From Notamacropus eugenii (taxonomy: Eukaryota; Chordata; Mammalia; Diprotodontia; Macropodidae), in the NCBI RefSeq assembly GCF_028372415.1, contig NC_092879.1, forward strand, positions 92,838,741 to 92,902,740: a stretch of 64,000 nt of DNA, given 5' to 3'. Of the stretch, positions 7,046 to 8,879 are shown one piece after another. Each line of letters starts with the position of its first letter. Within the stretch, counting starts at the first letter, position 1. The notes under the pieces were generated by a model. The model did not search any database. It saw nothing but the letters and a program-made list of their open reading frames with translations, and was not told where the DNA came from. Both the position numbers and the translations under genes were made by a program.

Positions 7046-8879
7046 GTGAGTCCTTAGCGCCCTCTGCCCTGCACGTTTCCGTTGCCCTTTTGTCTCCTCT
7101 CAGCCTTTGTCTCCCCGCCTGTCATGGCGTTCTGCGCAATGCAGAACCGCAATTTAGAACTCGGCCGCCAGAGGGCGCACGGCGCATTTCCCCCTCTTGG
7201 ACTCGGAGGGCGTTTCCCATGAAGCCATGCGGCCCGCAGCCTCTTTCTACCCCCATTTCCGGCCACGTCGCTTTCTTTTCGGATGACGACGCTGCGGCGG
7301 CCATCGTGGGCGTCCGGGGAGGCGCGAGAATCGGGCATGGTCATAGCTCGTGCGGGTCGGCTTGGAGGGCCCTGCAGAGCTTGGCCCCCCCTGACGAGCC
7401 CGCTCTTCCGGGAGGCGCTCGAACTTGGGCTCGCAGGGCTTCAGCTGGAGGCGGGTGGGCGAGAACAAAGGAAACATGGCGGTCGGCGGGGGTGCGGTGG
7501 GGTGTGGCCGTGCCCGGTCTAACGCGCCCGGCAGCCGGACCCCAGCACCTGGGCCTTGGTGGGGGCGTGGGGGGGTGGAGACCGGAGGAGGAGGAGGGTG
7601 GGAATCGAAGGTTGGCGCTGCCTCCCAAGCTCTGGCCGCTAGGGGGCGCCCTCCTTGGAAGGCCTTGAAGTCTTGGATGCCGCTTACTCATTTAATATTT
7701 TTTTCCCAGGTGAACGTCCCTAAAACCTGCAGAACTTTCTGCAAAAAGTGCGGCAAGCACCAGCCTCACCAAGTGACGCAGTACAAGAAAGGCAAGGATT
7801 CCCTGTACGCACAGGGTAAGATCAGTGGTTGCTGCTGGGGAGGATGGGTGACCCTCTGTCCTGACAGGCGGAAATGCTAATAGAAGAATCTATGCTTTAG
7901 ATACTAGTAAAGAAAAAAAGACCTCCTGTGACTAGCAGTATGGACTCACTCGGTTAGTAAGTTTTCTTTACTTTTCCTAGGGAAAAGGCGATACGATCTG
8001 AAGCAGAGTGACTATGGTGGTCAAACAAAACCAATTTTCCAGAAAAAGGTGAGTATAACATAGGGCAGAACCAGCTGGGCTCCCCTGCTAAGGAAAAAGG
8101 GAATCTCTTCCTCACATGTCTCAGCAACCTAACTGTTATAGACATCCTCATAGTGGCTTTGGTTTTAATCTTGGGGGCAGCCCACCATTTGTGGCAAAGC
8201 CTCTGCTTCTAGTAGTAGTACTCCTGACATTGTGGTAGCTTTTAAAGACAACTAATTCCTGTTCCACGGTTTAAAAAAGGTTTAACTTAATTCAATCTTT
8301 GTTCCAGGCAAAGACCACAAAAAAGATTGTACTGAGGCTTGAACGTGTGGAACCCAACTGCAGGTCTAAGAGGATGCTTGCCATTAAGAGGCGTAAGCAT
8401 TTTGAACTGGGAGGAGATAAGAAGAGAAAGGTGTGTATGTGACAGGGAATTGAGGCTCTTGTGTATATTTTTCTCTAACCTGCTGCCTTATTTGGGAAGA
8501 GAAACTATGTGTTAACCTGCAAAAGGTAGCCATTGGGGAATGGTTTGTTCTTGTTGGTTTACAGACAAATGGAGATTTTTAAATCTAATGCCTATCCATG
8601 GGGAGTAAGTGCTGGGCGTGGTATCCCAAAGACCTGAGTTCAAATGCTGAGCAACATTTAGGAACAGTGCCCTGGGTACAGGAACTTAATCCATTTACCT
8701 CAAGTAAACTCCCTGGGACTTAGTTGGGTGGCCTATTCCTATAAAAAGCTTTTCTCAGCCATTCCAAAACAAAGGAGTTTCAGGAGCCCATGCTTAGTTT
8801 GGGCATAAGCAGTATTCTTAAATTATATACTGATCTATTTTTTTCTATTCTGTTACAGGGCCAAGTGATCCAGTTCTGA
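6971..8879 (+). CDS. RPL36A: Ribosomal protein eL42 (RPL36A), five-exon gene
   Basis: Component of the large ribosomal subunit near the tRNA exit site. Exons 2-5 (7710-7815, 7981-8048, 8308-8430, 8859-8879) encode residues 2-106 in one open frame ending GQVIQF-stop, the length and end of human eL42, and every junction is GT-AG. Compared with the human protein as remembered, eight residues differ in a family that is nearly invariant in vertebrates: R8C, K22Q, R38K, R43L, G47D, R57Q, C72R and C88R. C72 is one of the four zinc-ribbon cysteines (C12, C15, C72, C77) and closes the L44e signature [12 protein letters not shown]; here it is Arg. In human the initiator ATG is, as I recall, the last codon of exon 1; no ATG directly before a good donor is visible here. 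The best donor (7046) gives an in-frame extension from ATG 6971. A decaying or redundant gene is possible. Identity of exons 2-5 is sure; exon 1 is not. Confidence 0.88.
7710..7815 (+). CDS. RPL36A: RPL36A exon 2
   Basis: Acceptor ttttcccag|GTGAAC, donor CAGG|gtaag. Encodes residues 2-36, [11 protein letters not shown] through SLYAQ, with the zinc-ribbon pair C12/C15 intact and Arg8 changed to Cys. Confidence 0.95.
7981..8048 (+). CDS. RPL36A: RPL36A exon 3
   Basis: Acceptor cttttcctag, donor AAAAAG|gtgag. Encodes [20 protein letters not shown] plus QKK, keeping the conserved GGQTKPIF loop. Confidence 0.95.
8308..8430 (+). CDS. RPL36A: RPL36A exon 4
   Basis: Acceptor tgttccag, donor AAAG|gtgtgt. 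Encodes [12 protein letters not shown], then Arg where the zinc-ligand Cys72 should be, then VEPNC (Cys77 kept), and Arg for Cys88 before [12 protein letters not shown]. Confidence 0.95.
8859..8879 (+). CDS. RPL36A: RPL36A exon 5 and stop
   Basis: Acceptor tgttacag, then GQVIQF and TGA, exactly the family C-terminus. Confidence 0.95.
   Translation, partial: GQVIQF

Follow-up and report, generated by a model that had tools for sequence, protein, structure and literature searches.

In the wallaby, the X-linked ribosomal protein gene RPS4X has a broken reading frame and two autosomal retrogenes serve in its place, as described by Hughes et al. (2015; PMC4446799). For the ribosomal protein eL42, encoded by RPL36A, Dharia et al. 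(PMC4219774) place the copy RPL36AL after the split from opossum. Here we analyse the RPL36A locus of Notamacropus eugenii in a stretch of 64,000 nucleotides (referred to as the window, with all unprefixed positions counted from its first letter), and conclude, with a probability of roughly three in four, that the ancestral X-linked gene is being displaced by retrogenes and is drifting. Among the matches listed in open-licence literature on RPL36A with Monodelphis, Tasmanian devil, or RPL36AL/marsupial, no report on a decay of X-linked RPL36A was found.

The window maps to a contig of 103 Mb (C25) in a genome of 3.445 Gb and 254 contigs. Exon 1 of RPL36A (6897..7045) is defined by the 5' ends of retrocopies and by the 7045/7710 junction, the retrocopies placing the mRNA start at about 6897-6901. 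It is followed by exon 2 (7710..7815), which begins with Val2, exon 3 (7981..8048), exon 4 (8308..8430), the coding portion of exon 5 with a TGA stop (8859..8879), and a 3' UTR (8880..9727) with AATAAA near 9702, whose end at a putative poly(A) site is where retrocopy homology stops and A-rich tails come next; all of these lie on the plus strand. Starting with Val2, 105 codons run uninterrupted up to the stop and all junctions are GT/AG, which bears out an earlier reading of these letters (the sequence-only reading) in its claim that exons 2-5 are intact. GLA (alpha-galactosidase A) follows downstream on the minus strand, the exon matches to Pfam Melibiase_2 and Melibiase_2_C spanning 10382..15240 with the first exon not located, and BTK lies upstream of RPL36A, 10-20 kb before the window, the stretches nearer to the window being free of a BTK match. 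BTK, RPL36A, and GLA is also the gene order in human. The introns and the BTK/GLA synteny identify the exons in the window as the true locus, and they rule out a retrocopy or segmental duplicate as well as a chance resemblance to RPL36A; judging from the same synteny, the contig should represent the X chromosome. A small RNA in an RPL36A intron was not found, as there is no Rfam or tRNA match anywhere in the window. The plus strand of 17600-27490, 10 kb past GLA, gave no Pfam match, and HNRNPH2, which sits in the region beyond GLA in human, may be missing here.

Compared with mammalian eL42 from PDB entries, the X-encoded protein is identical in 98 of 105 residues. The differences are R8C and K22Q in exon 2, R43L, G47D, and R57Q in exon 3, and C72R and C88R in exon 4, adding up to seven instead of the eight previously counted; Arg8Cys, Cys72Arg, and Cys88Arg had all been named correctly. 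Yeast eL42 agrees with mammals at six of the seven changed positions, the exception being position 57. The zinc cysteines of eL42 are C12, C15, C72, and C77, and with CGT (Arg) at codon 72 the zinc site of X RPL36A is incomplete. Zinc binding is listed for human RPL36A in PMC13090322, and PMC5418926 describes a GGQTK motif and a longer stretch of residues 47-53. The motif itself (49-53) is retained in X RPL36A, and G47, with which the longer stretch begins, is replaced by Asp.

A genome-wide profile search returned at least 19 eL42 matches, the intron-split window gene not being among them. These 19 were sorted into three intact copies, two copies derived from an intact one (L006 and L008), 11 copies of the X mRNA type, and three that were dropped because of short or ambiguous alignments (L020, L023, and L025). 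The intact copies are full-length, stop-free, intronless open reading frames which keep all four zinc cysteines: L001 and L002 form an inverted pair, 13 kb apart on contig C15 (324.71-324.72 Mb), and L003 is located at 1.14 Mb of C26, a contig of 14.3 Mb that might be the Y chromosome. All three have one and the same coding sequence, whose product departs from mammalian eL42 solely by F11Y, a Tyr that also occurs at this position in yeast. Between them and the X gene there are 47 synonymous codon changes and eight amino-acid differences, only F11Y lying on the side of the copies, and the third-position GC content is 94% in the intact copies versus 58% in the X gene. L001 and L002 match each other at 99.5% over 1970 bases; compared with C26, their near flanks are 97-99% identical and further pieces 79-87%, so that the intact eL42 copies seem to have multiplied recently. 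Two processed pseudogenes of the intact copy, L006 and L008, both begin at a pyrimidine tract (CCCTTCCTCCCC) resembling that of 5'TOP mRNAs, and L006 additionally carries a poly(A) tail, its flank looking repeated when inspected by eye. Germline transcription of the intact gene from a start of the 5'TOP kind must therefore have taken place in the past. The intact copies are probably translated and supply eL42.

The sequence-only reading had suggested an autosomal intronless copy, RPL36AL in other mammals, as a possible supplier of the normal protein. Copies with an intact C72 are indeed present in the same genome, and none of the three is RPL36AL. The human RPL36AL gene is intronless and adjoins MGAT2, and a search of some 18 kb to the left and right of MGAT2 (C1, 309.42 Mb) gave only chance-level eL42 matches (E values of 0.9 and 9.4), which rules out the intact copies as RPL36AL orthologues. 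The dating of RPL36AL after the opossum split in PMC4219774 also argues against this identification. As the intact copies lie elsewhere than RPL36AL, their origin is probably independent of the eutherian gene.

The 11 copies of the X mRNA type (L004, L005, L007, L015-L019, L021, L022, and L024), which give good alignments to the transcript of this gene, are without exception broken by stops or frameshifts. A 5' end near 6897-6898 is shared by L004, L005, and L016-L018, with similar flanks, by eye, in L007, L022, and L024; nine of the 11 extend to position 9719 or beyond, the shorter ones being L016 and L021. Most are followed by an A-rich stretch, and a flanking repeat of 8-11 bases is present at five of the ten loci examined. 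The tree of the retrocopies resembles a star, its inner branches being weakly supported except for the pairing of the X gene with L004 (87%) and the group of L016-L018 (100%). The latter are three related copies inside 0.3 Mb (C14, 2.03-2.33 Mb) with a near-identical left flank, which apparently were multiplied by DNA duplication following one insertion.

These retrocopies confirm the splice of 7045 to 7710, according to which exon 1 ends with ...CATCACTGCCCTTCG at 7045, ahead of gtgagt in the intron, and the junction reads CCTTCG / GTGAAC. An ATG directly before Val2 is therefore absent in X RPL36A, and the "open frame" described previously is correct for the segment from Val2 to the stop, while the lack of the normal initiator had been overlooked. 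In the mammalian chains 7nwg_o3 and 7qwq_o, which extend past the usual start, Met directly precedes Val2 in both cases. The junction is readable in ten of the 11 retrocopies (not in L015, and L019 is partly deleted), and none of these ten carries an ATG there. Exon 1 is completely free of ATG in L005 and L016-L018, representing two independent events, and other ATGs turn up singly in this exon of L004, L007, L021, L022, and L024. The start of the older mRNA (6897-6915), as read by eye from the retrocopies, appears to be TCTTTCGCCATCATCC and resembles the GCCATCATG with which the intact copies start; as a speculation, the TCTTTCGCCATCATCC-type start could be a relic of the lost initiator.

To count changes in the X lineage, the X gene was compared site by site with the majority of eight retrocopies (L005, L007, L015, L018 standing for L016-L018, L019, L021, L022, and L024). 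Nine coding sites (seven nonsynonymous, two synonymous) were initially flagged at 303 resolved sites, of which codon 8 position 2, codon 34, and codon 35 position 2 were removed by hand as CpG decay in the retrocopies, and R8C and R43L were added by hand from the unresolved list. The resulting numbers of seven nonsynonymous and one synonymous change compare with a neutral share of about 3.8:1, and a rough Fisher test of 7:1 in the X gene against 1:47 in the intact copy gives p ~3e-7. With changes at 8 of 318 sites, the coding region of the X gene has evolved at half the rate of the 3' UTR of this gene, where 40 of 797 sites have changed (Poisson p 0.02, Fisher p 0.07; the latter count omits four CpG sites and becomes 44 if these are included). 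The corresponding ratio of coding to 3' UTR change is 1.11 in six pooled retrocopies, a pool that omits L015 (coding 0.206, 3' UTR 0.147), L004 (0.051 and 0.065), and L021, whose 3' UTR hardly aligned. Eight X-specific indels are found in the 3' UTR (nine were flagged and one, at 533, was discarded) and none in the coding region, where about 2.8 would be expected from nine retrocopies, excluding the shorter L016 and L021 (p 0.06). Purifying selection on the X protein is lost as judged from the 7:1 ratio, which consists of small numbers and is accompanied by a slower rate of the whole coding region than of the 3' UTR. Conservation of the X protein thus departs from its usual pattern, though complete neutrality is not proven. 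The earlier suggestion of relaxed constraint through an intronless copy elsewhere is well supported by the three intact copies carrying C72 and C88 and by the 7:1 ratio in the X lineage.

The retrocopies also record the order in which the changes arose. The transversion R43L is common to X, L004, L019, and L021, and K22Q is confined to X and L004, showing that R43L preceded K22Q. R8C occurs in X, L004, L019, L021, and also in L017, the step from CGC to TGC being a case of CpG decay, and R57Q, likewise at a CpG site, in X, L004, L019, L015, and L024. G47D, C72R, and C88R are confined to X, and L019 has CAT at codon 72; timing at codons 72 and 88 is uncertain, because CGT decays to TGT. The positions of R8C, R57Q, C72R, and C88R within the series, which CpG decay can mimic, would accordingly be provisional.

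A scheme combining these features would start with an old spliced RPL36A mRNA being copied onto another chromosome, where the GC-rich copy, now present as three with identical coding sequence, would supply eL42. The X gene would then have continued without initiator ATG, its transcript still being spliced, polyadenylated, and retroposed many times, and its frame would have drifted with R43L (perhaps together with R8C) as early change, followed by R57Q and K22Q, and by G47D, C72R, and C88R as the last ones. In that case, the X gene presumably yields no useful eL42 today. The intact copies, the missing junction ATG, and the 7:1 changes count for this replacement, and the open X frame, the intact splice sites, the slower coding rate, the lack of coding indels, and an upstream in-frame ATG count against it; a retained function of the X gene, as indicated by the open frame and the slow coding rate, represents the minority case.

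The upstream ATG (6971..6973, plus strand) is the sole in-frame one before codon 82 in the inferred mRNA, lying 25 codons ahead of exon 2, and a further one at 6866 precedes the inferred mRNA start. Since the frame is open from 6971 to the stop, its use would add 25 residues, and the X gene might still encode a variant eL42 of 130 residues that lacks one of the four zinc cysteines and is specialised inside or outside the ribosome. We regard this as unlikely, even with intact splice sites, a coding region that is free of indels and evolves more slowly than the 3' UTR, and an ATG at the same site in L004 and L022, because the 7:1 share is what neutral drift gives and six of the seven changes cost a basic residue or a cysteine in an rRNA-binding zinc protein. 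Moreover, the site reads ATC in L021, AGG in L016-L018 and L024, and AGA in L005, and the ATG has a poor context (CGCCTATGA) and spans the end of the loop of a hairpin in exon 1, formed by a perfect 16-bp inverted repeat with a 6-nt spacer (6951..6988, plus strand; -36.9 kcal/mol as RNA). Folding of exon 1 beats 200 of 200 shuffles (z -3.7). Of the 16 pairs, 9-13 are kept in L004, L005, L007, L016-L018, and L022, and conservation of the hairpin is unsupported because unrelated rows reach 4-9 (L023 4, AUTO 7, L020 9). The N-terminal extensions of 7nwg_o3 and 7qwq_o were rejected as homologues of the upstream frame, as alignments past the junction cover at most five residues and none is convincing. 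A specialised X eL42, as suggested by the sequence-only reading, is only faintly indicated, and a dedicated variant which acquired its upstream start after the takeover, and which is extended at the N-terminus and broken in its zinc site, seems quite improbable; if true, it would imply two kinds of ribosomes or an extra-ribosomal role.

Still less probable is that the X gene is kept as a transcript with a role at the RNA level, or because it overlaps a promoter or enhancer, in which case the sequence and not the protein would be maintained. The X transcript has diverged less from the retrocopy majority than the older retrocopies L005, L007, L015, L018, L019, L022, and L024, in the 3' UTR (0.055 versus 0.075-0.147) and in the coding region (0.030 versus 0.078-0.206) alike, and it has accumulated fewer nonsynonymous as well as fewer synonymous changes than the 13.8 and 3.6 expected from the 3' UTR rate. 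However, much of the difference may be due to a lower mutation rate on the X and to CpG decay in the retrocopies, and Rfam offers no candidate in the window. The explanation of C72R and C88R as assembly errors or rare alleles in an otherwise tolerated eL42 gene, which is consistent with a single assembly as their source, with both being T to C changes, and with the absence of CGT at either codon from all retrocopies, is highly improbable, since L004 has K22Q, R43L, R57Q, and R8C in common with the X gene and both L019 and L021 have R43L, as real older changes, the start codon is missing too, and the CAT at codon 72 of L019 is one step away from CGT and two from TGT.

Returning to the replacement by retrogenes, the case is that of an essential X-linked ribosomal protein gene giving way to intronless copies, and it is unusual in concerning a normally near-invariant protein and in its retrocopy record. 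eL42 is near-invariant from yeast to mammals, and its intron-bearing gene is apparently caught here in the middle of being replaced, with retrocopies recording the order of loss, so that the transfer of an essential X-linked gene to another chromosome can be studied directly. Eutherian RPL36AL, which lies beside MGAT2, differs in location from the copies described here. It resembles them as an intronless RPL36A copy outside the X, and PMC4219774 assigns it to the eutherian branch after the opossum split. The replacement described here predicts that the marsupial and eutherian eL42 retrogenes arose independently. Orphan retrogenes, which replace their parent genes, are similar in combining an apparently functional retrocopy with a decaying parent, whereas the RPL36A parent can still be recognised, is spliced, and keeps an open frame. 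The closest reported case is wallaby RPS4X (PMC4446799), beside which RPL36A would become the second ribosomal protein of this kind; it differs from RPS4X in affecting another protein, in combining the loss of the start codon and amino acid replacements with an otherwise open frame, and in having a series of retrocopies as a record of the process.
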